From contig NZ_AUBF01000008.1 in NCBI RefSeq assembly GCF_000429105.1, positions 1 through 64,000 on the forward strand: a stretch of DNA of 64,000 nucleotides. Direction: 5' to 3'. The position numbers and the translations under genes were made by a program. The notes below the pieces were generated by a model. That model saw only the letters and a list, made by a program, of their open reading frames with translations, did no database searches and was not told the origin of the DNA. Below are positions 10,373 to 34,802 of the stretch, piece by piece. Position 1 is the first letter of the stretch. Every line of letters begins with the position of its first letter. Source of the DNA: Schaalia suimastitidis DSM 15538. Its GTDB lineage: Bacteria; Actinomycetota; Actinomycetes; Actinomycetales; Actinomycetaceae.

Positions 10373-10403
10373 TCAGTGTTGGTGACGCTTAGGCATCGCA
10401 CGT

Positions 10404-10688: not shown

Positions 10689-10711
10689 CTTCGTTCTCCT
10701 TCAGTGATGAT

Positions 10712-15800: not shown

Positions 15801-15808
15801 GGGGCATA

Positions 15809-17158: not shown

Positions 17159-18639
17159 GGCGCACATTATGGAGCACCGCGTTGGTGACGTGCATAATGC
17201 TATCGGCGGGCGTATCGGCTTATGCGCAAGGGTATGTGCATGAGGGGTATATTGATACTCAAAGTTACGTGTCTGCTTACGCGATTGATCAGCTGCGCGC
17301 AAAGGGGTATGACGGGCAAGGTGTCACCATCGGAGTGATTGACGGCCCAGTGGATGTTACTGCGCCAGAGCTACAAGGCGCGGACATCGAAGTGAAGTAC
17401 ATGTGCGACGAAGAGGATACGAACAACGCTAGTGAACTCGCCCACGGCACTGCGATTGCGTCAATTCTTGTCGCTAAAGACTGGGGGTGGGTCCCCCAAG
17501 CAAAAATCATTAACTATGCACTCCCCGATGGAGAACCCTCAGTGTCGTCTGGGTTTAGAAAACCCCCCACGAGCTGTAGGGGAATCCATCCGGTAGCGTA
17601 CGCGATTCATCAAGCGCTAAATGACGGTGTTGACATTATTTCCATGTCTTTAGGTGAAAGTCTCACAGAGTTTGATGAGGCTGCGATTGCTCGCGCTGCA
17701 GCGGTGGACGTTCCTGTCATCGCGTCGATGGGGAATGATAGCCGTGAAAATCCTGATGCCTCCTATGCCAGGCTCAGCACTGTGGTGGGTGTTGGTTCAA
17801 TTAACGCTGAAGGGTATTTGTCGAGTTTTTCTAACTACGGCGATGGATTAACGGTTCTTGCATTTGGGGAAGGCATCACTTTACGCAGTTTTGACGATAG
17901 TGGGTACTCGACACCTTCTCCTGGAAAGCAAGGCACCTCGTATTCGGCGCCGATGGTCACTGGCGCGATGGCGGCAGCGAAGTCGAAGTGGCCTGATGCT
18001 ACTGGACGGCAGTTGATTTATTCGTTGATGCGTACCGCTATCAGTGACTCAGATGGATGGACACCGCAGCTTGGGTATGGGGGGATGTCCGTTGAGGGCT
18101 TGTTGAACACCGATCCAACGACGATGCCCGACACAACGCCACTGCTTGGTCGTAATGGACTTTCTATTGAGTTGACTCAAGCTGATATTGATGACTATGA
18201 GGATGGGTTGACTTCCCCCTACTACCTTGAAGGTGACACGACGTACATTTATCGTGGTACTGACGAGTTAATCATCGCACTCTACCCAGAGATTTCACAG
18301 CCCGGCACCTCACCTCGATATGCCAATTCGCAAGCTACTTCAGACACTGATGCGGGGGTGCCTGTGTGGGTATGGGTACTCGTTGGTCTAGGCACAGTGA
18401 TCACCCTAGCGATAGTGGTGCGGTTTTTTAGCCGAAACAAAGGTGCTGGCCGTCAAACGCTCCCTGTGCCAGCATCACCATATGCGCATATTCCTCCTTC
18501 ACAGGCATCGACAATTCCGCCACTCCACGCACCCCAGGCCTCGCCTTACCCACCATCAACGCCATCACCAACAGGGTCTGCCTCCCCCACATGGCCACCA
18601 CCGTCGGCTCACCCTGACCAGCAGACGCCTCCTGCATAG
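17155..18639 (+). CDS. Mycosin-like subtilase, copy 2
   Basis: The 494-residue subtilase has a signal peptide (to about residue 25), catalytic Asp63 (GVIDGP), His97 (AHGTAIAS), Asn194 (SMGND) and Ser262 (GTSYSAPM). It then has a membrane helix (about 400-422) and a cytoplasmic Pro/Ser/His-rich tail of 70 residues. The nucleophile motif is more canonical here than in copy 1. The GTG at 17155 is preferred over a TTG one codon earlier because gaggtg is seven bases upstream; it overlaps the previous stop (GTGA). It probably cleaves a substrate of this locus, perhaps one encoded by the following effector module. Confidence 0.9.
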   Translation: MRRTLWSTALVTCIMLSAGVSAYAQGYVHEGYIDTQSYVSAYAIDQLRAKGYDGQGVTIGVIDGPVDVTAPELQGADIEVKYMCDEEDTNNASELAHGTAIASILVAKDWGWVPQAKIINYALPDGEPSVSSGFRKPPTSCRGIHPVAYAIHQALNDGVDIISMSLGESLTEFDEAAIARAAAVDVPVIASMGNDSRENPDASYARLSTVVGVGSINAEGYLSSFSNYGDGLTVLAFGEGITLRSFDDSGYSTPSPGKQGTSYSAPMVTGAMAAAKSKWPDATGRQLIYSLMRTAISDSDGWTPQLGYGGMSVEGLLNTDPTTMPDTTPLLGRNGLSIELTQADIDDYEDGLTSPYYLEGDTTYIYRGTDELIIALYPEISQPGTSPRYANSQATSDTDAGVPVWVWVLVGLGTVITLAIVVRFFSRNKGAGRQTLPVPASPYAHIPPSQASTIPPLHAPQASPYPPSTPSPTGSASPTWPPPSAHPDQQTPPA

Positions 18640-18766
18640 CAGGTGTGGGAGCGGTTTCATGTGACGGGGGTCGTGCGTGTCGTTGCGGCAGAAGGAGGTC
18701 TGTGAGCGGTGGTGACCATTCGTGTTTCTTGGCGGGAAATTGCCACCCGTGGAAGGGATGTGCGCA

Positions 18767-19078
18767 ATGTCGGTATTAGAGGTTGATCCGCCTGAATTGT
18801 TTTATTTTGCCTCGCGCTTGGATGATGTAGCGCAGGTATATGTTGATGCCCCATTGGGCGATGGTGCACTTGTCAGTGCGTCGATGCCGGGGGCAGAGTC
18901 TTTGGCTGCTTTTATCGGTGCTGTTGGAGTTCTTGAAGAATCGAATGCGGACCTGGTGGCAGCAATGAAGGATATTGCTGCTAATGCGCATGCTTGTGGT
19001 GCGGCATTTGCTTATAGCGATGATCAGGCTGCCAATGCGTTGTTGTCGTGTGTAGGTGTACTCAATGAGATGGTCTGA
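18767..19078 (+). CDS. EspC-like small T7SS partner protein
   Basis: The 103-residue, probably helical-hairpin protein starts with VLEVDPPELFYFASRLDDVA, a pattern like EspC-type small ESX proteins. A Phe variant of the export signal (FAYSD) lies near the C-terminus. The ATG at 18767 has aaggg ten bases upstream. The end of the gene overlaps the start of the lipase gene by 14 bases, so the two proteins are made together. Its likely role is a co-secreted partner or targeting factor for the lipase, as small helical proteins do for LXG toxins of Firmicutes. This role is inferred from position. Confidence 0.75.
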   Translation: MSVLEVDPPELFYFASRLDDVAQVYVDAPLGDGALVSASMPGAESLAAFIGAVGVLEESNADLVAAMKDIAANAHACGAAFAYSDDQAANALLSCVGVLNEMV

Positions 19079-20468
19079 TATTGCGCGGTGGGATCCTCGT
19101 GCATTAGAGCAGTTGGGGCGCGATATTGCTGCGTATCGTCTGCGGGTTGAGCATGCGGTTGAGGAAGTGTGGCGTGCAGAGAATCAGGTGCACGGTTCGG
19201 GAATGGCGTTAAGTGCGATGTTGGCTGCTTCGGGCCGTGTGAGGCTCCGAGCGGAGTGGTATGCGCAGCAGTTGGCGCAGTTGGCTGCGCTCACATCTGC
19301 TGCAGGTGATGGCGTGCGTGAGGTGAGGCGTCGGGTGTTTCGGTGCCAAGATTTTGCTGATCAGCGAGACTATTTGACGCTTGACAGTGAAGGAAATGTG
19401 CATTGTGTTATGCCATCGGAGGATCCTGAGGACGGGTACAGGAATCCGTTTGAATCAGACTATCATTCGGTGGCAGAAATGGCTGTCCGCACTAGCGCGC
19501 GTGATGACTTAATGCTGATGGTGGCAGAGGTGCATGCACTTGCTGAACAGGTCGATCACAACTACCGGTCGGGCTTATTGAGGATTATTCGAGGCCAGGA
19601 ATCCCCGTTGGGTGCCGGAGATGGTGCACTTGATGGGCGCATCACCAAGGCGGAGCCTCATCAGCGGGTGTTGGATCTTGGCGATATTTCCTATGCCATA
19701 TACCAAGACCACCTCACCCGCGCCCATAACCTTCCGAAAGGGTGGTCTGAGGTTGGGGTTGATGAGTTAAGGCATATGGGGTTGGATCCTAGTGATTTTG
19801 TGGATCCAGTAACAGGGTTCACTGCGGCATTATTTCGGCATGAAAATGGTGATTTTGTTGTGGCTTTTCGGGGGTCAGATGAGGGTATTGACTGGCCGAA
19901 TAATCTGGCGGGGTCGCTGAGTGTGTCGCCCCAACAAATTCAAGCGATAGATGTGGCTATGCGCGTGCGCTCTGCTCTTGAAAGCGCGGGTATAGGGATG
20001 GACCGCCTGCATTTTACTGGGCATTCTTTAGGTGGTGGCCTTGCGGCGCTGGCAAGTGTGGCAACAGGTAGCGCGGCAACAACCTTTAATGCGGCAGGGA
20101 GTTCTGACCTTGCGCTTGAGGCAGCTTTTTCTGCACGTAATAGCTCTTTTGGTGACCCGGATGCCGACGACCGTCAGCTAGCCGCACAGCGTATTGAAGC
20201 TTTCACTTCGGTCGATGATCCGCTCAGCCGTGCCCAGGGCGGGTCTCGGGCACCTGATGCTTTCGGCACCAGGATAGAGGTCGATCCGCCTGGGTCCCCG
20301 GAAGCTGCTGCTGGTGAGTATCGTGATACTCACCGGTACGTCCCGCCACAGGTCAAGTCTGCCGTGGATGCTCAGACATTATCCATACTGATCAAACAAA
20401 CACTAGAAGCCCATGGGGTAAGACCTATGCTTGATAAACTTGCGCACGATTGGGGGATACCACGATGA
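19065..20468 (+). CDS. Predicted T7SS effector: class-3-type lipase/esterase
   Basis: The 467-residue protein has a helical N-terminal region (residues 1-95, with WSDIARWDPRALEQL and no signal peptide) that suits WXG-like export by T7SS. An alpha/beta-hydrolase domain of the lipase class 3 type spans about residues 205-430. The nucleophile elbow is GHSLGGG (Ser321), Asp384 or 385 lies in SVDDPL, and His423 lies in DTHRY, so the triad is complete. Oxyanion-type AFRGSDEG precedes it. The ATG at 19065 has aggtg seven bases upstream. The stop overlaps the downstream lipoprotein start by four bases. The layout matches antibacterial lipase effectors guarded by a lipoprotein; a phospholipid or acyl-ester target outside the membrane is inferred. 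Confidence 0.85.
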   Translation: MRWSDIARWDPRALEQLGRDIAAYRLRVEHAVEEVWRAENQVHGSGMALSAMLAASGRVRLRAEWYAQQLAQLAALTSAAGDGVREVRRRVFRCQDFADQRDYLTLDSEGNVHCVMPSEDPEDGYRNPFESDYHSVAEMAVRTSARDDLMLMVAEVHALAEQVDHNYRSGLLRIIRGQESPLGAGDGALDGRITKAEPHQRVLDLGDISYAIYQDHLTRAHNLPKGWSEVGVDELRHMGLDPSDFVDPVTGFTAALFRHENGDFVVAFRGSDEGIDWPNNLAGSLSVSPQQIQAIDVAMRVRSALESAGIGMDRLHFTGHSLGGGLAALASVATGSAATTFNAAGSSDLALEAAFSARNSSFGDPDADDRQLAAQRIEAFTSVDDPLSRAQGGSRAPDAFGTRIEVDPPGSPEAAAGEYRDTHRYVPPQVKSAVDAQTLSILIKQTLEAHGVRPMLDKLAHDWGIPR

Positions 20469-20968
20469 CTCCTTCGCCCTGCCTTTACCCCACACGGCGT
20501 GCCGGATTCTCTGTGCGTCGGCTTGTTGCTACCGCACTGGCCTTCCTCCTTGGGGTGAGCACGCTGGCTGGATGTAACGCAGTAGCACCGCCAGAAAAAA
20601 TCGAAGAAATCAAAACAGCAATCATGGACATCGGCGCCCCCATCACCGACGTCTTCTTAGTTCACTCCGACCTCGGAGAAATCGGGACTGGACTGACCTT
20701 AGCAGTCACCGTTTCAACCCAGGAAGTCAGCCCTCAACTTGTCCGAGACATTGTGTTAACCCTCGACGAACACGTCAACTTCACTTTCAGCTCCGGCCTC
20801 ATCAGAATCGAAAGACAAGACGGCACCAGAATCCACATCCAAGACGCAGCACGCGCCGCAGGCGTACCCATTCGGTTTAGTCGCATCCCCGACGGCATCA
20901 ACTGGTTTAACGATGAAGAACTCATCGAAATAGCCAAAGCCGTACGCGCCACACCCCTCAACAACTAA
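20465..20968 (+). CDS. Lipoprotein, candidate immunity protein for the lipase
   Basis: The 167-residue protein has a long basic N-terminus and a hydrophobic segment ending in lipobox LAGC, so it should be lipid-anchored on the outer face of the membrane. The mature part (about 130 residues) looks like a small alpha/beta domain I do not recognise. It starts inside the lipase stop (ATGA) with gggg six bases upstream, so it is translated with the lipase. That is what one expects of an immunity protein that must neutralise an extracytoplasmic lipase. Its codons favour C and A in the third position, unlike the G/T-rich genes just before it. Confidence 0.8.
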   Translation: MTPSPCLYPTRRAGFSVRRLVATALAFLLGVSTLAGCNAVAPPEKIEEIKTAIMDIGAPITDVFLVHSDLGEIGTGLTLAVTVSTQEVSPQLVRDIVLTLDEHVNFTFSSGLIRIERQDGTRIHIQDAARAAGVPIRFSRIPDGINWFNDEELIEIAKAVRATPLNN

Positions 20969-21176: not shown

Positions 21177-22331
21177 ATGTCAACACCATCCCAACCACCG
21201 TGGGAGCCGCTAGGACCAGCACAGCCACGACAACGTCCTGATCATGGTAATGGCATGCGCCCAGCGACAATGTGGGCACGACTGTGCGCATACATGGTAG
21301 ACCTCCTATGCGTTCTCATCCCGACGCTGACCTTACTGTTAGTGAATTACCCCTTATGGCTAGCATCCCTCCCAGCAGGCGGCATCATCATTGGGGGTAC
21401 CCTTCTGAGGGCATTTACCGGCTACACCCTTGGTGGTGCCCTCACAGGTATTCGTGCAGCACGCACCAACACTACCCAGCCACCAGGTTTTGCTCGCCAA
21501 CTCGCCCGGACACTTGTCACACTCTTCCTTCACACCACGATTATCGGCCCTGCCATCAGTATCATCTTTGGCATAGGTGGCAAAGACTGGGTTGACCGCC
21601 TGTGCGGAACGTGGATGATCGCAGCCAATGACATCACCAGTACACCTCACCCCACTTATCGTCCCTCCCCGACCGTAAGCAACACGCACTTGGCCGCAGA
21701 GCCACCGGCCGTTCACACACAGGTTCGTCGCACCCCGACGCCTTGGCCCGCTCCCACGCACGCCAAACCCACCGCTGCCCATATGGCAACCACTATTCCA
21801 CAGGGTCCTTTGCCAACACCTTCACCCCAAAAGGAACACGACCGCGCGCACTTCGTCGATCCTATGCCCACCGTGTTAATGCCCACCATCGTTGCTATCT
21901 CAGGCTCCGACGGACATACCGCATCATCATGGTCGACACCACGGATTGTTCCCGCAGCTCACGTACACCACAGGTCAAGCCAAATCCCAGCCGGTAGGCT
22001 ACGGCTCGTTGTCGATAGCGGGCAATGTGAAGAGATCAGCACTCCCCTCATCGTTGGCCGTAACCCCAGTAACGTCGATCCTCAGGCAACCATTGTTGCA
22101 ATCCCCGATTCCACACGAACACTATCGCGCTCTCACTTCTTGCTACGGCCGTCTGGTGATGGGGTCACCATTGAAGACACATATTCCGCTAACGGCACCT
22201 GCGTGCGTTATCCCAGCGGCGAAAAAATCCCCCTGACACCAGGAACAAAAATCCAAATTCCCCCCGGCACGACAATCCTGGCAGGTGAACGGTCGATGCT
22301 CCTCACCTCCGATGCGGCGCCTCGACACTAA
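21177..22331 (+). CDS. RDD-family membrane protein with C-terminal FHA domain (copy 2)
   Basis: The 384-residue paralogue of the 8,925-10,112 protein has a short Pro-rich N-terminus, an RDD membrane domain (about residues 30-155, with LCAYMVDLL), a His/Pro/Thr-rich linker, then an FHA domain with IVGRNP, LSRSHFLL and DTYSANGT. The ATG has ggggga just upstream. It is preceded by a 208-bp gap with a plausible -10 (TATGAT, 21139-21144), so it may have its own promoter. It converges with the kinase gene. A kinase and a phosphothreonine reader side by side suggest it binds the kinase or its substrates at the membrane. Confidence 0.88.
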   Translation: MSTPSQPPWEPLGPAQPRQRPDHGNGMRPATMWARLCAYMVDLLCVLIPTLTLLLVNYPLWLASLPAGGIIIGGTLLRAFTGYTLGGALTGIRAARTNTTQPPGFARQLARTLVTLFLHTTIIGPAISIIFGIGGKDWVDRLCGTWMIAANDITSTPHPTYRPSPTVSNTHLAAEPPAVHTQVRRTPTPWPAPTHAKPTAAHMATTIPQGPLPTPSPQKEHDRAHFVDPMPTVLMPTIVAISGSDGHTASSWSTPRIVPAAHVHHRSSQIPAGRLRLVVDSGQCEEISTPLIVGRNPSNVDPQATIVAIPDSTRTLSRSHFLLRPSGDGVTIEDTYSANGTCVRYPSGEKIPLTPGTKIQIPPGTTILAGERSMLLTSDAAPRH

Positions 22332-22389: not shown

Positions 22390-24030
22390 TTATGGGACCT
22401 GAATGCAGGTACTTGCCGGACTGGACTGACGCCCAGATTCGCCAACTGCAATCACCTCAATACAATGTTCGCCACTCATCGCCTCGGTACTCGCGTAGTT
22501 GACATTGACTGACCGCGTAACCTCTTCACCGTCGGGACGCGTAACGGTGTACAGATACGTTTTCACTTCACCCGCAACGGTCACTGCAGTCTCGTCAACA
22601 CCCTGATTTTGGATATCGGCTATTTGCTCATCAGCACCCGCGACACCCGCCGTGTCCTCTGTCGGCACTGTCTCCACTTCGCCAGGTACCGCCTCGCCAC
22701 GTTTCCACGTCCAATGAATCTCTGTTTCTTGGACAACACCACTAATGTCACGCACAGGTGCTGGCGCAGGCGCAGCAATATCTTCCAACGACTCCTCCGC
22801 TGGTGAGGTATCCCCACTAGTGGGCAGAACAATACCACCGCCACCAGTCAACATCGCCACGATCAAACCTGCTGCAATGACCGCACCCAGCACAACAAGA
22901 AGTAGCACGGTCAGCAAGCTCCTCCTATGCTTCGTTTGGCTAACACTACCGTTTCTGCGGTCGTCAATAGGGTCGCGCGTCACCTCACGTACTGTCCATT
23001 GGTCTTCCACAACCGAAGGAACATGAGCAGCAAAGTCAACAACCGGAATGTCACTCACGCGCGTGCGTTCTGCATCGATTGACGCAATGCCACGCAACCG
23101 CGTCGCATCGTCAAAAGAGTCGGCACTCAACCCTCCAGGGACTCCACCTCGTCCAGCAATTGGCAGGTCACGGAGCTCCATCTGCGTCACTTGGCGGCCC
23201 ATGATCTCTTGGACCTGCTGTAACGCACGACCAAACTCAAAAGCACTCGGTGTACGTGTCAATGGATCTACACGCATTGCCTCACGTAACACCACTTCAA
23301 GATGAGGCGGCGCATCCCCACGTCCTAATGCACGAAGAGCACCTGAACGCACCCGCGTCGCAATAGCCACCGCAGAATTATCGCCAACAGGGTCTTCAAA
23401 TGGGCTACGGCCAACCAACAGTGTCCACAACGTTGCCGCTAAAGCCCACACGTCCTGCGTGGGATGGGCGTGTGTGGACGCATGTTGTTGTTCTGGCGGC
23501 GCCCACAACACCGAAAAACCGTCTAGCCCACCCGGGCTCAGCATGCCGATTTCCGCCGCAACGCCGAAATCGCCAAGCACTGGTTTGCCGTAGGAATCGA
23601 GCATAACATTGCCGGGCTTGATGTCACGATGTACCAACCCTGACCTGTGCATCATCTCAACGCCACCGCATAAGCGAATAATCGTGTCTATCGCTCGATC
23701 AACAGCCATGGGACGTGCACGTACTTGAGCACCAATATTGGCAACCGGACAATATTCCATCACCAAATACGGTCGTCCGTCACCTGCGGTTCCTGCCGAA
23801 AACAGCTCAACAACCGCTGGATGCCCTGCCACGGTGGCCATCGCATTCGCCTCACGGCGAAGCTCCCGAATACCCGAGGATTCACCGCCAAAACGCGCCA
23901 CCTTAATGGCGACATCCCTGGCAGGCACATGCTGACGATACAGGTGAACATCCGCGAATCCACCTGAGCCAAGCAGACGAACCCACGTATACCCGTTCAA
24001 TTCAGGTGCAACTGCTCCCTGCGATGTCAT
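22390..24030 (-). CDS. Transmembrane Ser/Thr protein kinase
   Basis: The 546-residue Hanks-type kinase has a Gly-rich loop LGSGGFADV, Lys43 in VAIKVARF, the catalytic loop HRDIKPGNV (Asp136), DFG (Asp154) and APPE. The catalytic set is complete. A juxtamembrane linker leads to one membrane helix (about residues 375-400) and an extracytoplasmic domain of about 120 residues. That domain resembles a fibronectin type III fold (HCIEVIAVGESGRQSSPAS) rather than the PASTA repeats of PknB. The start at 24030 overlaps the transglutaminase-like stop (ATGA), with gggga upstream. It is the last gene of the five-gene leftward cluster, as in the bifidobacterial PFNA cluster (Pkb2). Confidence 0.95.
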   Translation of the reverse strand: MTSQGAVAPELNGYTWVRLLGSGGFADVHLYRQHVPARDVAIKVARFGGESSGIRELRREANAMATVAGHPAVVELFSAGTAGDGRPYLVMEYCPVANIGAQVRARPMAVDRAIDTIIRLCGGVEMMHRSGLVHRDIKPGNVMLDSYGKPVLGDFGVAAEIGMLSPGGLDGFSVLWAPPEQQHASTHAHPTQDVWALAATLWTLLVGRSPFEDPVGDNSAVAIATRVRSGALRALGRGDAPPHLEVVLREAMRVDPLTRTPSAFEFGRALQQVQEIMGRQVTQMELRDLPIAGRGGVPGGLSADSFDDATRLRGIASIDAERTRVSDIPVVDFAAHVPSVVEDQWTVREVTRDPIDDRRNGSVSQTKHRRSLLTVLLLVVLGAVIAAGLIVAMLTGGGGIVLPTSGDTSPAEESLEDIAAPAPAPVRDISGVVQETEIHWTWKRGEAVPGEVETVPTEDTAGVAGADEQIADIQNQGVDETAVTVAGEVKTYLYTVTRPDGEEVTRSVNVNYASTEAMSGEHCIEVIAVGESGRQSSPASTCIQVP

Positions 24031-26513
24031 CGTGTCTTCCCCTTCTTTGACCACCTACGCCTCGACCGCGTTCCCATCGCGTCCGCGGTAACTGCATGAC
24101 GCCGTTGATGGTCGAGGCGTTGTGTGCGGTCGCGTAGTCGTTCTTTCTTACGCTGTTCACGTTGACGCTTGTGATATTCGCGCAACGAACGAATAGAGAA
24201 TGTATACCTAAGACGCTCCCACAACGACGATGCGCCAGTAAGCTCAGCTGACAACTGTTCCACTTGACTCCATGTTGCGTGGGCAACTTCTGTCGTCGGC
24301 TCATCTGGCCCAAAATCCGCGCGATCAGCAGCCCTGGCAACTGCCACCGTGCCGGGCAACGCAGTTCCTTCGATACTCCACCGTGAAGAGGTATGAGCCG
24401 ATGGGGCCTCCTCCACAGTGTGGCTGGCCCACAATGTTTGAGACAGAATCCACGCAGTCTCTTGGCGTGTCAGCTCTGGTTGGACGGTGTGGCCTGCATC
24501 GATCGCCATGTCCACCACCTCGGCCCATGAACCTTCAATGGCTGCCCTCGCTGGTGCTTTACGGCGACGTGAACGTCTCCGCGCTTTAAACACAAGGATA
24601 AGGAGCAGGGGAAGCAGGAACAGGACGAGCGCGCTGCCACTGACTGCGATCAGTGCCCACGGCAGATGAGCGGTCTCGTCATCTTGTGGGTCAGCGTCCT
24701 TATCAGCCATCGTCGGCAACATCTCGGCAGGCTCTTCTGGCGGCTCAGGTGGTTGCAGCACCTGCGGACGTGGCACTGACCGCGGTTTCGGCACATCCGT
24801 TTGCGGAACTTGGTCGCGCGGCGGTGTCGGATCAAATACCGCCCAGCCGACGCCGTCAAAGTGAACTTCAACCCAGGAACGTATATCCTCGCCCTGGAAC
24901 TCCACCGTACCGCTTTCCTGCGGCGCATACGCGCCCATCACGACACGCGCGTTAATACCTAATGAGTGCAACATTAATGCCATCAGCACTGAGTACTGTT
25001 CGTCATCTCCGATGAGTTGCGCATTGTCAAGCATCCGTGTCAGTCGATCGGTGCGGTGCCCCGGTCGCGACTGTGCGCTGCCCTCATTCGAGAAAAATCC
25101 TTCCTCAGCAAGGTATCGTTCAATCGCTCGTGCGCGGGCTAGCGCGCCTTGTTCTTTGGAGGCAATTGTCGAGGCGAGTTCCGCAACCGCTGGCGGCACA
25201 CCTGTTTCGGTTCCCACGTACGGTGTTGCTTGTACGCCAGAAAGTTGACCATCAGTCCACGTAGGAGCGATCATCGTCTCCATCGTGTATGACAAAGGAC
25301 CCTGCGGCGCCGTCGTCACCGCTGCATCTGCCCACAAGTCCACATGCAAGCCATTTTGTTGCTTCCGAGCATCTGCTCCATCAAAGATCAGAGATGACAC
25401 TGTTCCGGTCAACGGTACCCACGGGCCAAGGAGACGATGTGTTGTCACGTGAATGGTCGCTTCAACGGAACCCTCAGGAACATTTCGCTCAGGAAATTCG
25501 GTCCCAACCTTGGTATATCCACCATTGTCGTACACACCCACTGGGCTTATGCGCATGGCAGTGCCGTCATACACATCCATGACGCCAATGCGTAGGCGAG
25601 CGTCTTTAGGTAATCCCTCGACGGTCGCAATCGTTTCACGTTCAAGGTCGGTTGAATAGTGTCTAAAGGCTGCTAAGGGTGTCGGATATTCCTGAACATC
25701 CAACGGAGGGTCGACGAGGTCGCGCAGCACAATGCGGTTCGTTGGCCCGTTGACGTAGCCAACGTAACCTAAGGACCCAGCACCAACAACGAGGACCGTA
25801 AGGATCCCCGCCATGACGCGTTGTCCGGCGCGCACCGCGTTACGCGACGCGCCTTGATGAATACCAGTGTTACCCGTATGCTCCCCGTTACCTCTGCCGA
25901 TACGCACATCAACACCACGGTCGAAACGCCGTCGCTGCGCTGCCCAGGCCCACCACAGAATTACCGAGGCGGCCCACCCAATCGCCAGCAACGGCCTCGG
26001 CTCGCTGGACGATTCCCCCCATGCGATACCGACAATACCCATGAGCGCCACCGGTATCGTCCCAGCGATCATTTTGCCTCGGGCCGTAAGAAGACCCGAA
26101 ACGGTGGCACAGACGAGTCCCGTGATCCACGGAAGAACCGCGGGACCTACGTAGGTCCCAGCCGGAGGTGTCAGCGTCAACAGGTCCATCCAGGCATAAG
26201 CGGACTGAACCACAAGGAGCTGGAGCGTGTGAGCCGTAGGCAATACACCGAAAAGTGTTGTTTCAGGGAGCGCGGCTACACCTCCCAGCAGGAAATATGA
26301 GGCAAGGACAGCCGCAATGGTCGAAAGTGCATCCCAACGCCACCAACGCGCTGCGGCTGCTATGGCCAAGCCAACCACGACGCCGCATCCTGCCGCTCGT
26401 AAGCCCACGAAACCACCAAAAACTGGTTCGTGGACGACGATGACAGGGACAAATAGGGCCAGTAAAACCAGAAAAACCCACCCCGGCTGAGGCACTATAC
26501 GGCGACGGAACAT
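24027..26513 (-). CDS. Transglutaminase-like membrane protein, catalytic residues missing
   Basis: The 828-residue protein has about six N-terminal membrane helices, an extracytoplasmic region with a transglutaminase core (about residues 420-570), another helix (about 625-650) and a cytoplasmic basic tail. The core is recognisable by GINARVVMGAY and GVGWAVFDPTPP. Where active enzymes have Cys (CEQFA), this one has Asp (DEQYS, residue 504). Where they have His (HAWVEV), it has Arg (RSWVEV, residue 545). It is therefore probably a binding or scaffold protein, not a crosslinking enzyme. The ATG at 26513 shares a base with the upstream stop. Neighbours are the DUF58 and kinase genes. Confidence 0.9.
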   Translation of the reverse strand: MFRRRIVPQPGWVFLVLLALFVPVIVVHEPVFGGFVGLRAAGCGVVVGLAIAAAARWWRWDALSTIAAVLASYFLLGGVAALPETTLFGVLPTAHTLQLLVVQSAYAWMDLLTLTPPAGTYVGPAVLPWITGLVCATVSGLLTARGKMIAGTIPVALMGIVGIAWGESSSEPRPLLAIGWAASVILWWAWAAQRRRFDRGVDVRIGRGNGEHTGNTGIHQGASRNAVRAGQRVMAGILTVLVVGAGSLGYVGYVNGPTNRIVLRDLVDPPLDVQEYPTPLAAFRHYSTDLERETIATVEGLPKDARLRIGVMDVYDGTAMRISPVGVYDNGGYTKVGTEFPERNVPEGSVEATIHVTTHRLLGPWVPLTGTVSSLIFDGADARKQQNGLHVDLWADAAVTTAPQGPLSYTMETMIAPTWTDGQLSGVQATPYVGTETGVPPAVAELASTIASKEQGALARARAIERYLAEEGFFSNEGSAQSRPGHRTDRLTRMLDNAQLIGDDEQYSVLMALMLHSLGINARVVMGAYAPQESGTVEFQGEDIRSWVEVHFDGVGWAVFDPTPPRDQVPQTDVPKPRSVPRPQVLQPPEPPEEPAEMLPTMADKDADPQDDETAHLPWALIAVSGSALVLFLLPLLLILVFKARRRSRRRKAPARAAIEGSWAEVVDMAIDAGHTVQPELTRQETAWILSQTLWASHTVEEAPSAHTSSRWSIEGTALPGTVAVARAADRADFGPDEPTTEVAHATWSQVEQLSAELTGASSLWERLRYTFSIRSLREYHKRQREQRKKERLRDRTQRLDHQRRHAVTADAMGTRSRRRWSKKGKTR

Positions 26514-27763
26514 TACGATAACGCTCCTAATGCCACTATTCGACCAAGGTGATCCAGACTCGGGCAATCCACCACGGACACTGCGCCAAGTCGGTGCCGA
26601 CGCATCGCAGTTCCTGGGGCGATTCGAAGCACGCCACAGACAATATTGGCACCAATCACCGCGTTGAGTCGCGCAATTTCTTCATCGGTTGTCAGCGGAC
26701 CAACCACCAGGGTCAGCACAGAAATATCGGGCCGTGCCGTGATCACTTCACGTAGCCGACGTCGAAGGCTGGCGCCAATCCTCACCTCAAGCTCGGCAAG
26801 TTCGTCAAGCATTCGCATAGGCGACGAGGTGGAAATCCAGCCCTGTGACGTTGCGAAGGATATTTTGCGCGAAGCAGTAAAGCCTGACAAGCCTAACGAT
26901 GCAGCAACGGACACTGCCAGTTCAAAATCCTCCCCTGCCCAGTGTTCTACACGCGTGTCAAGCATGATGAGATGGTGGCTTCGGCGGGTTTCTTCAAAAA
27001 CCCGCACCACAAGGCGTCCGGTGCGCGCAGTCGTCGGCCAGTGCACATTTCGCCGATCGTCGCCTGGGACGTAGTCTCGCAGCGCGTGGAAGGACACGTC
27101 TGAAGACGATAAACGTGCCGTCGTCACACCCTCAACATCAACCAACGCACCCGTGGCGTCAAAAGGGACACGGATTGTTTTCGGATGCACGTGAAGGCGC
27201 TGCGCGTGAGACCACTGACGTAAGCGGCGTAGTAGACCCAACGCATCGGTTCTTACGGTGCGAGGCGGTCCGATCGTTATCACGCCTCGTTTGCGGGCCT
27301 CGACTGAAAAAATCTCCTCCCACTCTTGTTGACCACGAAGCGGCGGAACAATGAAGCCTACCGCTGAGGAACCAACGGGGAGTTCGACCACACCGGTCGA
27401 ACTGCGGCGATGACGGGTATTACGGACACGTACCTCACCCATCGCGCTTTGTCCCGCAACGATACGGGACTGCGGTAGCCTCACCTTCACTGCATGTGGG
27501 CTTGGAACAAAGACCCACACTGCCGCTACAAACAACAACAAAAGAGCGAAGATCGCTAAAGCATAAGCCTCGACCCATCCGAACCACTGAGCGATCAGCG
27601 CCGCGAGTATGGCGCAGGCCAGTACCGCCCAACCTGTGAGGCTCACCCACGCCAGGCGTGTACGTACCCAAGCGATCCATCCGATGCTGACAATTCGGTC
27701 GCCAGCCTGCCGCAGCGCATGCCGCAGCATTACGAGGCGATGAATTCTCTTGAGCTGATTCAC
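26513..27763 (-). CDS. DUF58 membrane protein
   Basis: The protein is about 416 residues with two N-terminal membrane helices and the DUF58 signature about two thirds along (LRDYVPGDDRRNVHWPTTAR), followed by a von Willebrand A-like region starting LIMLDTRVEHW. DUF58 proteins are almost always encoded beside MoxR ATPases and transglutaminase-like proteins, as here. They are thought to act in assembly or maturation of membrane or surface complexes. The start is uncertain: the GTG at 27763, five bases after the moxR stop, is used; a longer frame would run back into moxR, and an ATG at 27730 is another option. Neither has a strong ribosome site, so coupling to moxR is likely. Confidence 0.88.
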   Translation of the reverse strand: MNQLKRIHRLVMLRHALRQAGDRIVSIGWIAWVRTRLAWVSLTGWAVLACAILAALIAQWFGWVEAYALAIFALLLLFVAAVWVFVPSPHAVKVRLPQSRIVAGQSAMGEVRVRNTRHRRSSTGVVELPVGSSAVGFIVPPLRGQQEWEEIFSVEARKRGVITIGPPRTVRTDALGLLRRLRQWSHAQRLHVHPKTIRVPFDATGALVDVEGVTTARLSSSDVSFHALRDYVPGDDRRNVHWPTTARTGRLVVRVFEETRRSHHLIMLDTRVEHWAGEDFELAVSVAASLGLSGFTASRKISFATSQGWISTSSPMRMLDELAELEVRIGASLRRRLREVITARPDISVLTLVVGPLTTDEEIARLNAVIGANIVCGVLRIAPGTAMRRHRLGAVSVVDCPSLDHLGRIVALGALS

Positions 27764-27767
27764 CAGA

Positions 27768-28733
27768 TCACACGCCCACTGCAGGAGATGGCACGGTTGC
27801 CAATGCCCGCGCGATAATACCTGATGCGGTTGCCCCTGAAAATGAGGCATCCGGGTCGACGACAATGCGGTGTGCCCACACAGGTGCTGCTAGTGCTTTC
27901 ACGTCGTCAGGAAGAACGAAGTTACGGCCCTGAGCGGCTGCCCACACTCTAGCACAGCGCACCATGCCAATCGCACCGCGTGTGGATACACCTAGGAGAC
28001 TCGTCTCATCTTCACGCGTTGCCTCTGCAAGGGCCGCAACGTAATCCAAAACAGCCCGGTCCATATGGTTGTGTGCTGCCAGCGCAGCTAAACGTGCCAC
28101 ATGTTCTGTGGCAAGTAATGATTTGAGGAACTTTGAGCGGTCAGGGGTTGCTGCGCCTTCGAGGATATCGACCATGGCCCCTCGGGATGGGTACCCCACA
28201 GATGTCTTCATTAGGAAGCGGTCAAGTTGCGCTTCAGGCAACGGATATGTTCCAGCTTGTTCCACCGGGTTCTGTGTCGCGATCACCATGAAGGGAGTTG
28301 GCGCCGCATGTGCCACACCGTCAACGGTCACCTGAGCTTCTTCCATCACCTCAAGGAGTGCCGACTGGGTTTTCGGCGACGCGCGGTTAATTTCGTCAGC
28401 AAGGACGATTTCAGCAAAGATCGGGCCGTTGTGGAAACGCCACTGGTTGCTTTGTTGGTCGTACATATTCACGCCGGTAATATCACTTGGCAACATGTCT
28501 GGAGTGAATTGAATACGTGAATTCGTACCGGAGATAGTGGCTGCGATTGCTCGCGCAAGCGCGGTCTTGCCTGTCCCTGGAGCGTCCTCAAGAAGCAAAT
28601 GCCCGCCAGCAAACATTGTGGTGAGTGCAAGCCGAATCACATGCTCTTTGTCAAGCAAAGCTTGGGACACTCCTTGCACAAGGCCGTTGAATGTCTGGGA
28701 AAAGCGGCCTGCATCTTCGGCGGTGATTGCCAT
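27768..28733 (-). CDS. MoxR-family AAA ATPase
   Basis: The 321-residue ATPase has Walker A APGTGKTAL (near residue 55), Walker B IVLADEINRA and sensor region MVIATQNPVEQAGTYPLPEAQ, all hallmarks of MoxR. Family members act as chaperone-like remodelers working with DUF58 or VWA proteins. The ATG has aggag seven bases upstream. It lies 39 bases after the giant surface protein gene and directly before the DUF58 gene, so it is in the middle of the leftward operon. All motor motifs are intact. Confidence 0.95.
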   Translation of the reverse strand: MAITAEDAGRFSQTFNGLVQGVSQALLDKEHVIRLALTTMFAGGHLLLEDAPGTGKTALARAIAATISGTNSRIQFTPDMLPSDITGVNMYDQQSNQWRFHNGPIFAEIVLADEINRASPKTQSALLEVMEEAQVTVDGVAHAAPTPFMVIATQNPVEQAGTYPLPEAQLDRFLMKTSVGYPSRGAMVDILEGAATPDRSKFLKSLLATEHVARLAALAAHNHMDRAVLDYVAALAEATREDETSLLGVSTRGAIGMVRCARVWAAAQGRNFVLPDDVKALAAPVWAHRIVVDPDASFSGATASGIIARALATVPSPAVGV

Positions 28734-28772
28734 CGTTTATCTCCTGAAGGTGATGGGGTGTGAGTCAAGGTC

Positions 28773-31700
28773 TTAACGCGGGCGACACGATAGTGAGGTT
28801 GTCAAAGCGGTGTCACCGTAAGGTAGGCGAATGAGCGGAGTTGGCAACGCTTTTTCCTTATTGGCCGCAACGATGAAGGTTTGCCCATTGGCTGGACCAG
28901 CGGTCACTGTGCAACGCAATTCGGTCACAGCATGCCAGTCACGACTGCTTACTTCAAGCAGTGCGCATGTCATTGCAGGATTTTCCTGTTCCTGAGCTGT
29001 GCAGGCGCGGGCCGAAGCAGTGACCGTCCCATACGGGTAGGCGCTTTTTTCTGGTGAGGTTGCCGTATTTCCAGACCTGTTGGTACCGGTCACCTTCACA
29101 GTGAGTGGTGTTCCAGGCTGGGCGGGTATGTCAATTGAACCTGTGGCACTTATTGGCCCTTGAGCAGTGTGGAAGAGTGCGCCATTAACGTAAACCTGGA
29201 TACGTTCGATCCCTGCAAAATCGGCACCCGGATCTGCGGTCCACGATGCACTCACTTTCCGTTCGCCTGGAACCAGAGTAACGTTCACCGCCCCCATTGG
29301 CCCTGTTGGCTGTGCGGTGGCGCTTATCGCTGGGCTTGCAGTATTGCTGCCAGCAGCCGTCGAGGCTTGCCGGAAGTACACGGTCGTGAGTTGGTCAGAG
29401 TTCACCTGAATCGTTGAGCTCTGCAGCGGTAACCATGTGGCCTGATCAAGACTGTATTGCAAGGCTAATTGACTTGCTGAGTACCCATTCCCTGGTCGCA
29501 GTGAGACTCCAGCGACACGCAACTGGCCGTGTGTGCCGGTTGGTGTCAGACGAGGAGTACCTGTAAGTGCGGCAGGTGTGCCGAGGGCTTGGAATTGGAA
29601 GGTTTGCGGTATCGAAGTTGCACCACCGCCGTTTGTCACCACGAATGTGGCATCGACACTTTCGCCGGCATCGATGGTGAAGGAATCTGACGTGGGCAAG
29701 GTTGAAACATCGGAGGAATATGTGCGGGTTTGTCCAGCCACGGTCACATGGACAGTGGTCAATGCCGGGCCGTTAGAACTGAGGTAATCCCAGTTCAATG
29801 TGACGGTCGACTGAGCGCCATTTCCTTGGGTGGCGGACACTCCGATCCACGACACACCAGCAGGCACGCCATAGGGCACGGTTCGTGCTGGTTGCGATAC
29901 TGCTGATGGCTGTTCGGAGCGATTGTGGGCCTGGATTGACACCTCATAAGGAACACCATTTTCAAGGCCACTTACCACGTGCGTAGTCGTACGCCCATCA
30001 ACCTCAACAGTGCGGCTGCCTCCAGATCCTCCGTTGATGAATAGGACATACTTCGTGATGGCTGAGCCCTTCGTCTCTGCGGCCTGCCATGTCACGGTCA
30101 TTTGAGTGTCACCCGGTATTGCCACCACACCGGTTGGTTCCCCTGGCTGCACATCGACAAGAACAGGGGCTGACGCAGGTGAAGGGTCAGATGTGCCCAT
30201 GCGATTGTGTGCCACCACGGTAAAGGAATGGCGATTCCCGTTTTCAAGGCCGGTTGCGGTACAAGTGGTCGTTACACATTCAAAGGTGGCGCCGCTCGAC
30301 GTAGCGGTCAGGGTGTAGCCCGTAATTGTCGAACCGTTATCAGCCCCTTGTCGGAAAGTAACGACTGCGGTCCCCGGACCTGTTGGTGTGACATCCGTAA
30401 TCGTCGGAGCGTCAGGACGGTCTTTTACCGCCAAACGAACCTTACCTTGAACGATACGAGCTGGATCACCGGTGGCATCCATCAGTCGATACACCACCGT
30501 CATCTCACCACGGAATGCTGCTGACGGGGTGATATTCAGTGTCGAACCCTGCGGATCCACTGTGCCTTCACCCAATTGAACCGAGGCATCCATTATCCGC
30601 ACCGGCACATCGGGGAATGGGTTCATTGTGTAGTGGGTCAGATCGATCCGTTGTGTACCACCCGCCTGCGCGGCCTCGACAATGGCGTCAGATGTCTGGA
30701 TAAGTGGGCGCGTTGACGCGATGACTGTAATCGGGATCTGCGTTTCCACTGCACCTGACCCGTCATCAACAGAAATCACCACATTGCCCGCTGGCCCCTT
30801 CGGGTGGTCTACACCAGCCGAAACCTCAAGCGTGTGCTCATTCAACGTCACGTCAATCCCCTGAGGAGAACCTGCCAAAGCGTAGGTGAAGTCGCGGGGG
30901 TCTGCGCCGTCAGGGTCGGTGACCATTAACGACAAGTCGAAGGTGGCGGGTTCTTCACCGGGTGCCACGCTAATGGGGGTGGGTCGCAATGACGGGGGTT
31001 GGTTTTCTGTTGCCGTTACTTCAATGGGCATTGTCAGCACTGCCGACAATGCCGAATCGTCATCACGAGGCCCATCGCTGACAGCGAATGACACTGAGGT
31101 TTTCCCCGACCATTCGGGTGTTGCGGTGAAGGTAATACTCCTGTCGCCTGACACCGAAATATCTGGTTCGATGCCAACTGATCGACGCACAGTGGTTGCG
31201 TCAAGGATGCGTGGGCTGCGTCCTTGCCTGACCACAACATATTCGCCAATATCGATCGTCATTGATTCGCCGGAGCGCATTTTCAGTGGGACCTTGGAGG
31301 CGTCAATGGTGGGGTTTGTGCGGTCGATACCTGCGACGGATACCAGTGCCGATGCGCTCAATCCATCGGGGTCTGTCACTGTGTACACGACGAGGCGACG
31401 CTGCGCTTGCGGGACAATAACCAGTTTGTTGTCAACAACGTTGACGTCATCAGTGTGGGTTGACACGACGAGAGCACCCGCATCGCCGTCGGGATCGGTG
31501 TCGTTGGCCAACACTGAAACGGTGACGTCACCACCTTCGGGAGGCAGATCGGCAAGAGAGACAATGTCGTCGCGTGCTACAGGTGGCTGCAGCTCTGCAT
31601 CTGGAGCAACATTGACAGTGAGTGTTCCAGTGCCCAGACCGCCTCTTCCATCGCTCACGGTGTACGACACGAGGTACGTGCCCGCCTGAGCGGGTGTGGT

Positions 31701-34700
31701 CATTGTGATACTGGCGTGATTGACGCGCGCGTCTATTTCTGGCGTATTTGTCTCAACTTCAGGCAGCAAGGAAATGGGGTCACCGTCAGTGTCAATGTCA
31801 TTAGCCAGGACAGGTACCGTGAGGCGACGTTCAGGTCGCGCCAAAACAGTGTCAGGTACCGCGATAGGAGACGCGTTATATTCTCCTGGAGCGGCGATGC
31901 CGACGCGTACCCTGGCGACAGCCTGTTTTCCTAGGCGGTCTTCCACAATGTAAGTGAAGACGTCGGTGCCCGTCACATCTGTCGCAGGCGTGTACTCAAG
32001 CCAGTCAACTCCCAGAGTCACAGTGCCCTTGGTTGGCGACTGTTCAATACCTACTAGGCTGACTGAATCCCCGTCGGGATCAATATTGTTCAGCGGAACT
32101 GGGATTTTCGTGGATTCGCCTGCAACAGCCCATGCGGTGAGTGCTTGTGGGCGTGGAGCAGCATTTGTTTCTTGTAGCGGCACAACTTGGAATGTGACGA
32201 GCGCAGTGGCCATATTGCCTGCACTGTCGCGCACAACGTAGGACACGTGCAATGTGCCTGCTTTCGTACCTGCCTCTAAGCGCACAAGATTACCGGTAAC
32301 AAATGGCGTACCCACTTCAGGGTCAGGCGTGTATTGAAGGACTGGATCAATCGTGAGTGCTAAGCCTGCTGGGGACCGATCATTAGAGAGAACATTTACT
32401 GAGGCTACGTCGCCAACACGGACGCGGGCATGGTCGGGCTGAAGTTCAGGTGGTTTGGTCGTATCGAGCGCACTTGTGGGCACAACCGTTACCAGGGCCG
32501 ATGCTGTATGCGTCCCATTGGACACCCAGTATTGGAACGACACGGCATTTTCAAGGCCGGAAGGTGCAGTGATTCGAAGCAGATGCCGATCGACCAGCGA
32601 CACTTCGAGTCCAAGATCTTGTGGGACCACGATCCTTTGTACGACAAGTACTCCACCAGCTGGATCAGAGTCGTTATTCAGCGGAGCACTGAGCGCTGAC
32701 CCCCCTGCAGGAAGGACAACCAGGTCGTCTTCTGCAACAGGCGTAGCCTGGTCGTCCGCGTTCACAACATCGACACGTATCATTCCGACCGCGGTCGCCG
32801 GACCATCTGTCACCGTGTACGTGAATTGGTAGGACCCGGGCGCCTGCGCGCCAAAGGTCACCGTGTCCAAATCAAGATCAGGTGTGAGTGTGGAACCAGG
32901 GGGAGCTGGCGATACCGCAACAAGGGCGATGGGGTCGCCATTAGGGTCTGTGTCGTTAGCTAATGGCTCAATGAGGAGTGTTTCACCTGCGCGGGCGACG
33001 ACGAAGTCGGCATTTGCGATCGGAGCAATATTGCCCGCAGGTTGAACATTGACGGTAAGCGTTCCATACCCTGTTTGTCTGCCATCGGACACTTCCAATG
33101 CGATGGCGTGCGGGCCGGGCGTCGCACCAAGATCACGTATGACGAGCGTGCCTTCTTCGCGGAATTGCACGTCGAGGCCATCTGACGCTTGGGCGTTGGC
33201 GAGGAAAATAGGGTCCCCATCTGGGTCTAGCCAGTCAGTGATGACGTTATATTCGATCTGTGCTTGTGCGCCGATCTTGATGGATGCATCGCGTAGTTGT
33301 TCTGGTGCACTGTTGACACTCCACGGGTGGATATTGACTGTGACCGTTGCTGTGTCGACTGCTTGTCCGTCGGATGCTTCGTAGGTGAATGTGGTGGAAC
33401 CTGTCGCGTGGTCAGGTACACCCGTTATTTGGAGGGCACGACCACCTCGCGTTCGGACAACTTGAGCGAAATGTGGGTCAGAGATATTCCGTGCTGTCAG
33501 GACGTCGCCGTCCGCATCACTGTCATTCGACAGTACTGGCAGTGTGGTCGTTCGTCCAGGACGCACCCCGAATGTGTCATCTTGAGCCTCTGGGGGCGTA
33601 TTTTGTTCTCGACGCTGTGGGTCAGCAATTTCCTCGGTAAGATCTGGGGAGTCTTCGAGTTGTTCGTCCTTGTCGAGCTCTGATTCAATTTGATCCCAGT
33701 CATTCATGAGGACCATTTTTTCTTCAGGAAGCCAGACTGCTCCGCCTCGTACATCGTTAAGAACAATACGGGTACGGTTGGTGCGGAAACGGGGTTCGCT
33801 CGCATTTTGCAGTGAGTCTACTTGCAAAGAATCTGAGTCCGCAGTGTTGTCACATGCACGCAAATACGATCCCGACTGTCCCCACGCAGCATAGGTGCAG
33901 CTCTTGTGGCGAACTGGGGGTGCCGCAATGCCGGGCGTCGAAGTGGTGTTGGCTTCAATGATCTGTGGCGTGGAGCCATCGAGTGGGACCAGGATGAGCG
34001 CCGAATCACTGGCCAAAGCCACCGTGTCGGCCTTCGGTCCAGCCTCTTGAAGAACAAGGTTTTTTGGAATGTCGTATTCGGTCAGGGATACCGCTCGTCC
34101 GTCAGGTAAGCGCAGACTATGGGCGGTGTGGTTGTAAATGACCGGTTGGTTTCCCACCGCAGTAACATCGAGTGTCGCTGCACTATCAACATTGTCCAGC
34201 GAGGTTTCAGTGACACGTTCAAGCGTGCCTTCGATAGTGACAGACGTAAGCAGCTGGTTGCGTGCTGAAGCAGCGAAAACGGTCCCGTCAACCGCTGTCA
34301 CTACGACACCACTGTCAAGTCCAGTGGCAACAGCAGCTTCGTCGGTAAATGAGATTGCCGACGGCATATCTGCTTGCGTAGTCCAGAGATTTCCTTCGGC
34401 TGTGTCGAGTACGCCGAGGCGTTGTCCACCTTGGTGGACCACAGCACCTTGTGGCAGCGATGTTGCTGCTTCGACGGTCACCTGTGCGACGTCAATGGGT
34501 GCCAGAGTGTGTGTGGTGCGATCGGTAAGGGTGACGACATCTGCGGTCTGGCCAATATCAAAATCCGTAGTTTGGGTCCGAAGCGCAGCATCAAGTGTCC
34601 GCGAATCGTAGTTAAGATGCCCGACCAAACGCTTTGAACCATTGGTCACCCAAATGCCGCCGTCATCAACATCAACCTCGGTGGTTGTCACACCCTGGTG

Positions 34701-34802
34701 AATGATCGCGAGTACAGAAATGACCAGGCTCACGACCAGAATGACAGCCGCCGGTATGCGGCTCCTGATCGCGTATTTCCCGACACTATTTCGAGACGAC
34801 AT
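28773..34802 (-). CDS. Giant membrane-anchored Ig/cadherin-like and fibronectin type III protein
   Basis: The 2009-residue protein has one N-terminal membrane helix (about 14-36) and an extracellular body. Residues about 45-380 have repeated short beta motifs (GQRLGVLDTAEGNLW, DGTVFAASARNQLL) like a beta-propeller. Then come about eleven Ig/cadherin-like repeats of 90-100 residues with the signature A-x-D-D...V-L-x-N-D-x-D-P-x-G-D. Four or five fibronectin type III domains follow (TGYTLTATSSG, TKYVLFINGGSG). Four cysteines cluster in the last 65 residues. There is no sorting motif, so it is held by its N-terminal helix. It is the first gene of the cluster with MoxR, DUF58, transglutaminase-like protein and kinase, matching the FN3 protein of the bifidobacterial PFNA set. 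Start supported by gaggtg. Confidence 0.92.
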   Translation of the reverse strand: MSSRNSVGKYAIRSRIPAAVILVVSLVISVLAIIHQGVTTTEVDVDDGGIWVTNGSKRLVGHLNYDSRTLDAALRTQTTDFDIGQTADVVTLTDRTTHTLAPIDVAQVTVEAATSLPQGAVVHQGGQRLGVLDTAEGNLWTTQADMPSAISFTDEAAVATGLDSGVVVTAVDGTVFAASARNQLLTSVTIEGTLERVTETSLDNVDSAATLDVTAVGNQPVIYNHTAHSLRLPDGRAVSLTEYDIPKNLVLQEAGPKADTVALASDSALILVPLDGSTPQIIEANTTSTPGIAAPPVRHKSCTYAAWGQSGSYLRACDNTADSDSLQVDSLQNASEPRFRTNRTRIVLNDVRGGAVWLPEEKMVLMNDWDQIESELDKDEQLEDSPDLTEEIADPQRREQNTPPEAQDDTFGVRPGRTTTLPVLSNDSDADGDVLTARNISDPHFAQVVRTRGGRALQITGVPDHATGSTTFTYEASDGQAVDTATVTVNIHPWSVNSAPEQLRDASIKIGAQAQIEYNVITDWLDPDGDPIFLANAQASDGLDVQFREEGTLVIRDLGATPGPHAIALEVSDGRQTGYGTLTVNVQPAGNIAPIANADFVVARAGETLLIEPLANDTDPNGDPIALVAVSPAPPGSTLTPDLDLDTVTFGAQAPGSYQFTYTVTDGPATAVGMIRVDVVNADDQATPVAEDDLVVLPAGGSALSAPLNNDSDPAGGVLVVQRIVVPQDLGLEVSLVDRHLLRITAPSGLENAVSFQYWVSNGTHTASALVTVVPTSALDTTKPPELQPDHARVRVGDVASVNVLSNDRSPAGLALTIDPVLQYTPDPEVGTPFVTGNLVRLEAGTKAGTLHVSYVVRDSAGNMATALVTFQVVPLQETNAAPRPQALTAWAVAGESTKIPVPLNNIDPDGDSVSLVGIEQSPTKGTVTLGVDWLEYTPATDVTGTDVFTYIVEDRLGKQAVARVRVGIAAPGEYNASPIAVPDTVLARPERRLTVPVLANDIDTDGDPISLLPEVETNTPEIDARVNHASITMTTPAQAGTYLVSYTVSDGRGGLGTGTLTVNVAPDAELQPPVARDDIVSLADLPPEGGDVTVSVLANDTDPDGDAGALVVSTHTDDVNVVDNKLVIVPQAQRRLVVYTVTDPDGLSASALVSVAGIDRTNPTIDASKVPLKMRSGESMTIDIGEYVVVRQGRSPRILDATTVRRSVGIEPDISVSGDRSITFTATPEWSGKTSVSFAVSDGPRDDDSALSAVLTMPIEVTATENQPPSLRPTPISVAPGEEPATFDLSLMVTDPDGADPRDFTYALAGSPQGIDVTLNEHTLEVSAGVDHPKGPAGNVVISVDDGSGAVETQIPITVIASTRPLIQTSDAIVEAAQAGGTQRIDLTHYTMNPFPDVPVRIMDASVQLGEGTVDPQGSTLNITPSAAFRGEMTVVYRLMDATGDPARIVQGKVRLAVKDRPDAPTITDVTPTGPGTAVVTFRQGADNGSTITGYTLTATSSGATFECVTTTCTATGLENGNRHSFTVVAHNRMGTSDPSPASAPVLVDVQPGEPTGVVAIPGDTQMTVTWQAAETKGSAITKYVLFINGGSGGSRTVEVDGRTTTHVVSGLENGVPYEVSIQAHNRSEQPSAVSQPARTVPYGVPAGVSWIGVSATQGNGAQSTVTLNWDYLSSNGPALTTVHVTVAGQTRTYSSDVSTLPTSDSFTIDAGESVDATFVVTNGGGATSIPQTFQFQALGTPAALTGTPRLTPTGTHGQLRVAGVSLRPGNGYSASQLALQYSLDQATWLPLQSSTIQVNSDQLTTVYFRQASTAAGSNTASPAISATAQPTGPMGAVNVTLVPGERKVSASWTADPGADFAGIERIQVYVNGALFHTAQGPISATGSIDIPAQPGTPLTVKVTGTNRSGNTATSPEKSAYPYGTVTASARACTAQEQENPAMTCALLEVSSRDWHAVTELRCTVTAGPANGQTFIVAANKEKALPTPLIRLPYGDTALTTSLSCRPR

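Follow-up and report, generated by a model that had tools for sequence, protein, structure and literature searches.

The 64,000-nucleotide stretch of Schaalia suimastitidis DSM 15538 analyzed here (the window) encodes P0001, a TgpA-like pseudo-transglutaminase of 828 residues. Comparative sequence analysis reveals a whole, old lineage of such proteins in actinobacteria that has lost the catalytic thiol and the constraint on the triad but kept the fold, and whose genes lie in an operon paired almost exclusively with the gene of a giant surface protein. We hold as about evenly balanced the reading that this is a catalytically dead TgpA-type lineage, encoded in an operon with the giant protein, a MoxR ATPase and a DUF58 protein and usually near genes for FHA proteins and a Ser/Thr kinase, and that its ectodomain is a non-catalytic receptor or anchor. 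Its likeliest role, we infer, would be to link the giant protein to the cytoplasmic MoxR-DUF58 pair and the kinase.

The P0001 gene occupies positions 24027..26513 of the minus strand (the initial annotation gave no strand); its start codon is an ATG at 26513 and its stop codon lies at 24027. This ATG overlaps the stop of the DUF58 gene as taATG, and the kinase ATG at 24030 overlaps the P0001 stop as ATGA. The topology, deduced from predicted helices and basic loops, comprises membrane helices between residues ~12 and 254, an ectodomain (~258-618), a further helix (619-643) and a cytoplasmic C-terminus. The Pfam Transglut_core profile (PF01841) matches residues 445-562 with 57.8 bits against a cut-off of 23; in the genome scan (G000:C4) this domain, at 24828..25181 on the minus strand, scored 62.5 bits. 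A domain above the curated cut-off together with the fold places P0001 in the transglutaminase-like superfamily. The TgpA_N family (PF11992) gave no match in P0001 at E up to 1; it matches the relative L002 and 24 of the 42 members of alignment A2.

The GDDEQY segment of P0001 aligns gap-free with the G-x-C-x-x-Y/F segment of Cys-bearing relatives. In this alignment, D504 (codon 25002..25004, minus strand, numbered from the ATG at 26513) occupies the position of the catalytic Cys, R545 (codon 24879..24881, minus strand, numbered likewise) that of the catalytic His, and D561 that of the Asp/Glu. Where catalytic TgpA-type transglutaminases carry a Cys-His-Asp/Glu triad, P0001 has Asp, Arg and Asp, which bears out the substitutions proposed in the initial annotation, Asp for the catalytic Cys and Arg for the catalytic His. 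D504 is invariant across the 19 rows of alignment A1. The only cysteines of the protein, at positions 43 and 135, both lie in predicted membrane helices, and the ectodomain has none.

The retention of the transglutaminase fold, also claimed from the letters alone, agrees with the Transglut_core score and with structure prediction. An AlphaFold2 model built from 42 sequences reached a predicted local distance difference test score (pLDDT) of 85.4 and a predicted template modeling score of 0.67. Its ectodomain superimposes on TgpA (PDB 6g4h) with Z 21.1 and a root-mean-square deviation of 3.5 over 250 residues (Foldseek E 5.8e-11). As in TgpA (PDB 6g49/6g4h), membrane helices are followed by an ectodomain of this fold. 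The triad is described as retained in TgpA of Pseudomonas aeruginosa (PMC3507681), whereas the dead lineage has lost it and is encoded beside a giant surface protein.

To characterize this lineage, 176 transglutaminase domains including P0001 were aligned, of which 120 lack the Cys ("dead") and 56 bear it ("live"). In the live rows, the His and a third residue Glu/Asp are both present in 56 of 56. The dead rows vary at all three positions: 95 Asp, nine Ser, seven Glu, four Ala, two Gly and one each of Thr, Pro and Gln at the Cys position; 78 His, 15 Arg, 15 Thr and 12 others at the His position; and 85 Asp, 12 Asn, nine Tyr, four Phe and ten others at the third. The idea that both essential residues are replaced thus holds for P0001 but not for the lineage, where His is kept in 78 of 120 rows; only the loss of Cys defines the dead set, and the His-to-Arg change is not a family feature. 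A conserved Asp-Arg salt bridge as a family feature was likewise rejected, Arg being found in just 15 of 120 rows. A conserved Cys elsewhere in the active site, which would have spoken against a pseudoenzyme, is absent: no Cys column reaches 10% of the 120 dead rows, and 114 of them have no Cys anywhere in residues 440-570.

While the triad varies, other parts of the domain are kept. All 120 dead rows share W547, E549, W557, R523 and Q506, and R490, D503, E505 and G541 are new residues, each conserved in more than 85% of them. The domain is usually followed by a Pro-rich linker, conserved and reading P-R-P-Q-V-L-Q-P-P-E in P0001 (residues 581-590; 24744..24773, minus strand), where residues 571-600 have a pLDDT of ~67 in the model. 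The form QV[LIVR]xPP occurs in 88 of 119 dead and none of 56 live sequences, and a looser form in 17 dead and two live ones.

Selection was estimated from the ratio of nonsynonymous to synonymous substitution rates (dN/dS). Because most of the 159 available pairs are distant and near saturation (median 0.456 over all pairs), only 24 close pairs of the genus (dN <0.1) were used; these overlap and are not independent. The domain dN/dS in these pairs ranged from 0 to 0.19, with the exception of L023/L024 at 0.40, which is also the one of five less-overlapping close pairs in which the domain was not slower than the rest. Some members have lost each of the three catalytic positions, which would fit a decaying gene or functionless remnant. 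This explanation, to which we give almost no credence, is opposed by the open frame, the translational overlaps, the order-wide retention, the low dN/dS in close pairs and the five invariant residues; random decay of a single gene was rejected on the conservation and the close-pair dN/dS. With an ectodomain that has no thiol, a triad free to vary, a retained fold and purifying selection in close pairs, the identification of P0001 as a pseudoenzyme, made by the initial annotation, is well supported at the level of sequence. Binding of peptide or peptidoglycan, which that annotation proposed along with it, would be a conceivable role for the old cleft.

The newly conserved residues raise a different explanation, a repurposed enzyme in which the thiol site is gone and H486, R490, D503 and E505 (with D504, H545 and D561 in many members) would form a site for metal- or acid-based chemistry on peptides or the cell wall. 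In the dead set, H486 is present in 82% of the rows (0 of 56 live), R490 in 94%, D503 in 111 of 120, and E505 in 106 of 120 with Asp in eight more; D503 and E505 each stay below 25% in the live set. However, the old nucleophile, His and Asp positions are free to vary, with Ala, Gly, Thr, Tyr and Phe among the replacements, and H486 is missing in 18% of the dead set. Matches in the PDB point to no other enzyme, although a missing match is no evidence. On balance we judge a new enzymatic activity quite improbable.

The second feature of the dead lineage is its genomic setting. The order-wide sample was drawn from PF01841 matches in 59 genomes; open reading frames of ~700 residues or more (one of 679) were fetched at 83 loci, of which 78 gave a transglutaminase domain, while L241, L242, L244, L246 and L248, without a match to the transglutaminase profile, were left out. 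Among these 78 TgpA-type frames, 51 bear the Cys, all of them with His and Glu/Asp, and 27 lack it. A giant propeller/Ig/FN3 gene lies upstream in none of the 51 Cys-bearing loci versus 26 of the 27 dead ones, the remaining dead locus (L249) being at a contig end (Fisher p 8e-20, in rows that share ancestry). Because the profile hidden Markov models of the giant gene were built from dead loci, a profile-free check on frame size was made: for the loci from L143 on, MoxR is immediately preceded by a frame of at least 1200 residues in none of 55 live loci and in 31 of 39 dead ones. Over all 175 classed loci, including the biased named ones, the giant gene accompanies 109 of the 119 dead copies and none of the 56 live ones. 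These counts indicate a near-exclusive pairing of dead copies with the giant gene. One live locus, L215, showed no MoxR or DUF58.

The samples differ in what they cover. The 80 named loci are the best 80 of 437, found with peptide patterns including GDD[ED]QY; since this choice biases them to the dead type, they were left out of the order table. Relatives with names belong mostly to Actinomycetaceae, Microbacteriaceae and Propionibacteriaceae. In the order-wide sample, the PF01841 matches listed reach E ~4e-11, and weak, mostly dead-type copies are under-sampled, so the number of "live only" genomes is an upper limit (further matches exist, for instance, in G043, G062 and G079). The dead type is also present outside the order, in L269-L272. 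These come from a class sample of which six picked loci were fetched with flanks (four dead, two live), a selection that yields no class-wide rate.

The distribution of the two types bears on whether dead copies act as regulatory decoys of an active TgpA paralogue, through heteromers or competition for substrate. Among the 52 order genomes with a classified copy, at least 23 carry dead copies and at least 19 carry both types. The window's own genome has two further copies, one with Asp, Arg and Glu on contig C7 and one with an intact Cys, His and Glu triad on contig C9. An arginine deiminase gene (L144, G000:C7, 15718-16971) lies a short way downstream of the C7 operon, the second dead operon of this genome. 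The coexistence of both types would suit a decoy, but in the genus sample a dead-type match of at least 290 bits was found in 29 of 35 genomes and a live-type match in only six, with both in four and the dead type alone in 25; the residue at the Cys position, read in 22 of the 29 dead-type genomes, is Asp. Since most genus genomes carry the dead type without a live one, dead copies do not need a live paralogue. The existence of such dead-only genomes, and a MoxR and DUF58 of the dead operon's own, weaken the decoy explanation, which we regard as very improbable.

Regarding the origin of the lineage, the MoxR partners split nearly as the live and dead transglutaminases do. In a MoxR tree of 108 rows, the live/dead label changes twice versus 36 times in shuffles, and a single clade for the dead set was not rejected by the approximately unbiased test (p 0.506); without L247 the label changes once. 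A transglutaminase tree computed without the triad columns (110 rows) also showed two label changes, and one starred set took in 48 of the 54 dead rows. These results are consistent with, and do not prove, one origin of the dead lineage. At locus L247 (G047:C21) the copy lacks the Cys (it reads Ser, Arg, Asp), and the accompanying MoxR groups with the MoxR proteins of live operons.

In the window, all members of the operon are on the minus strand. The gene of the giant protein of 2009 residues (28773..34802) is followed by those of the MoxR AAA+ ATPase (27768..28733; Pfam AAA_3, 209.7 bits), the DUF58 protein (26513..27865; Pfam, 40.9 bits), P0001 and a Ser/Thr protein kinase with a C-terminal extracytoplasmic part (22390..24030; Pfam Pkinase, 108.9 bits). 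The nearest match of the MoxR protein (82%) is a record titled Trueperella pyogenes. On the opposite strand, a protein with RDD membrane and FHA regions (21177..22331, plus strand; Pfam) adjoins the operon. The giant protein has an N-terminal membrane anchor, a propeller-like region (~45-390), Big_9/cadherin-like repeats and two fn3 stretches, the propeller-like region standing ahead of the Ig-like and FN3 repeats. A model of its residues 1-419 (pLDDT 89.7) has many propellers among its Foldseek matches, the best being 1l0q, a YVTN propeller from a surface protein of an archaeon (E 1.5e-8, TM 0.43). Beside the giant gene, at 35608-37077, lies a 489-residue protein without a Pfam match, with, judged by eye, a helical N-terminus and a different C-terminus; it could be a secreted toxin-like protein.

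The operon recalls the PFNA cluster of bifidobacteria, described with the order pkb2, fn3, aaa-atp, duf58, tgm (PMC8430577), in which tgm is treated as a putative transglutaminase (PMC6803598); this product is also described in print as presumably a cysteine protease. Positions 22390-34802 hold all five kinds of gene (kinase, giant FN3 protein, MoxR, DUF58 and transglutaminase), but the kinase stands last, after the transglutaminase, not first, so that the gene order differs. The PFNA order was found instead in family f3: in eight of eight of its genomes searched, the best kinase match lies ~10 kb upstream of the transglutaminase, beyond the giant gene and on the same strand. From this order we infer that the f3 genomes are bifidobacteria. 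All seven f3 loci read have Ser at the Cys position, Thr, Gln or Glu at the His position and Tyr or His at the Asp position. Given this Ser in genomes that show the PFNA order, the bifidobacterial PFNA "transglutaminase" is probably dead too. The initial annotation had seen neither the extension of the Cys loss to PFNA-type clusters nor the paired giant gene.

Other inactive transglutaminases offer partial parallels. RloB is described as an inactive transglutaminase with seven membrane helices from a Pseudomonas rlo operon, and mutations in it rescue an rlo protease mutant (PMC12239564); HM2192 of Shewanella is reported as an inactive bacterial transglutaminase of the RloB kind (PMC12096838). 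As far as these accounts describe them, both resemble P0001 in carrying an inactive domain on the outer side of a membrane protein with several helices, and in sharing an operon with a cytoplasmic protein that uses ATP. RloB differs in its partners, an ATP-grasp protein and an aspartic protease as against MoxR, DUF58 and the giant protein. At E up to 1, P0001 matched no RloB-type Pfam family (inactive transglutaminase with seven helices), a type for which we presume that a Pfam model exists.

For the inactive transglutaminase domains of polymorphic toxins, which, in the account given, have lost triad residues as P0001 has, a role as the peptide-binding anchor of a long surface protein was proposed, at times adjoining bacterial Ig domains (PMC3482391). 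There the domain is fused to the toxin, whereas in the window it sits in a membrane protein of its own, whose gene accompanies that of the giant protein. The MoxR-vWA ternary systems are described as combining a MoxR ATPase, a partner and catalytically inactive domains (PMC7159879), a combination also present in the window operon; their propeller, however, is fused to the vWA protein, while the propeller-like domain of the window lies in a giant membrane-anchored protein and the partner is DUF58. The window MoxR scores 48.5 bits with bpMoxR versus 209.7 with AAA_3. Inactive human transglutaminases, EPB42 and FBXO21, are also on record (PMC10318531). In the open literature we found no report of triad loss in MoxR-DUF58-transglutaminase operons or of their pairing with a giant protein.

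Adjoining the dead operon, positions 3409-19078 hold a type VII (ESX) set with an EccC-like ATPase, two EccD-like proteins, EccB, two subtilases, an EspC-like protein and an RDD-FHA protein. Beside it (19056-20968) lie a lipase-like (Mbeg1-like) gene and, immediately after it, a small lipoprotein gene, which could encode a secreted effector and its partner. In L066, L088, L264 and other dead loci, a large FHA and FtsK/SpoIIIE ATPase that resembles the EssC/EccC motor of type VII secretion is encoded downstream. P0001 might be a non-catalytic subunit or accessory of type VII-like secretion, with the dead operon helping in the export or anchoring of substrates of the adjoining EccC/EssC-like ATPase. 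Consistent with this, the fetched flanks (~9 kb or less) contain EccB/EccC/EccD-like genes at 35 of 119 dead loci and at none of 56 live ones, in a set of loci that are related; EccC-like matches occur in 26 dead loci. In contrast, the other 84 dead loci have no Ecc gene in their flanks, and EccB is found in just six of the 59 order genomes, of which the window's own is the only one to have it close to a dead copy, against dead copies in at least 23 of 52. For this reason, the type VII set is at most a recurrent neighbor of the dead operon, and ESX as its obligate partner is not supported; we consider a type VII accessory role unlikely.

In the receptor or anchor reading, the P0001 ectodomain would hold or sense the giant protein outside the membrane; its ligand could alternatively be a peptide carried by the giant protein, the cell wall or its own QVLQPP linker. 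Through the membrane helices a signal would reach both the kinase and the MoxR-DUF58 ATPase pair, and these would in turn control the placing or anchoring of the giant protein. In a fuller version that we advance tentatively, as a rather doubtful whole, MoxR-DUF58 and a kinase/FHA phospho-switch would form an actinobacterial surface machine acting through the dead receptor on the giant propeller-Ig-FN3 protein. The cleft would be kept for binding, perhaps with the protein's own linker as a pseudosubstrate released by the true ligand. Catalysis would have been lost with the recruitment of the giant protein, once and early in the class, and the bifidobacterial PFNA cluster would be one late form.

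Besides the dead-locus origin of the giant-gene profiles, several points weigh against the receptor reading. The role is a putative one derived from sequence, and the conserved H486, R490, D503 and E505 could form a new active site. Ten of 119 dead loci show no giant gene; L051, L055, L056, L061, L080, L081, L103 and L249 are on contigs that start too close, an excuse that does not apply to L159 and L272, which are either genuine exceptions or have a giant protein too divergent to be recognized. The MoxR branch parting live from dead is weak (53 in the Shimodaira-Hasegawa-like approximate likelihood ratio test without L247), and L247 possibly represents a separate inactivation or a long-branch effect.

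The common interpretation of TgpA-type proteins adjoining MoxR and DUF58 is that they are transglutaminases or cysteine proteases. If the receptor reading is true, the whole lineage, including the bifidobacterial PFNA "TGM", would lack thiol chemistry and call for study as a receptor or scaffold, and an upstream giant gene would predict from the neighborhood whether a transglutaminase copy is live or dead. The live operon without the giant gene and the dead operon with it would then provide a clean natural contrast for MoxR-DUF58 function.

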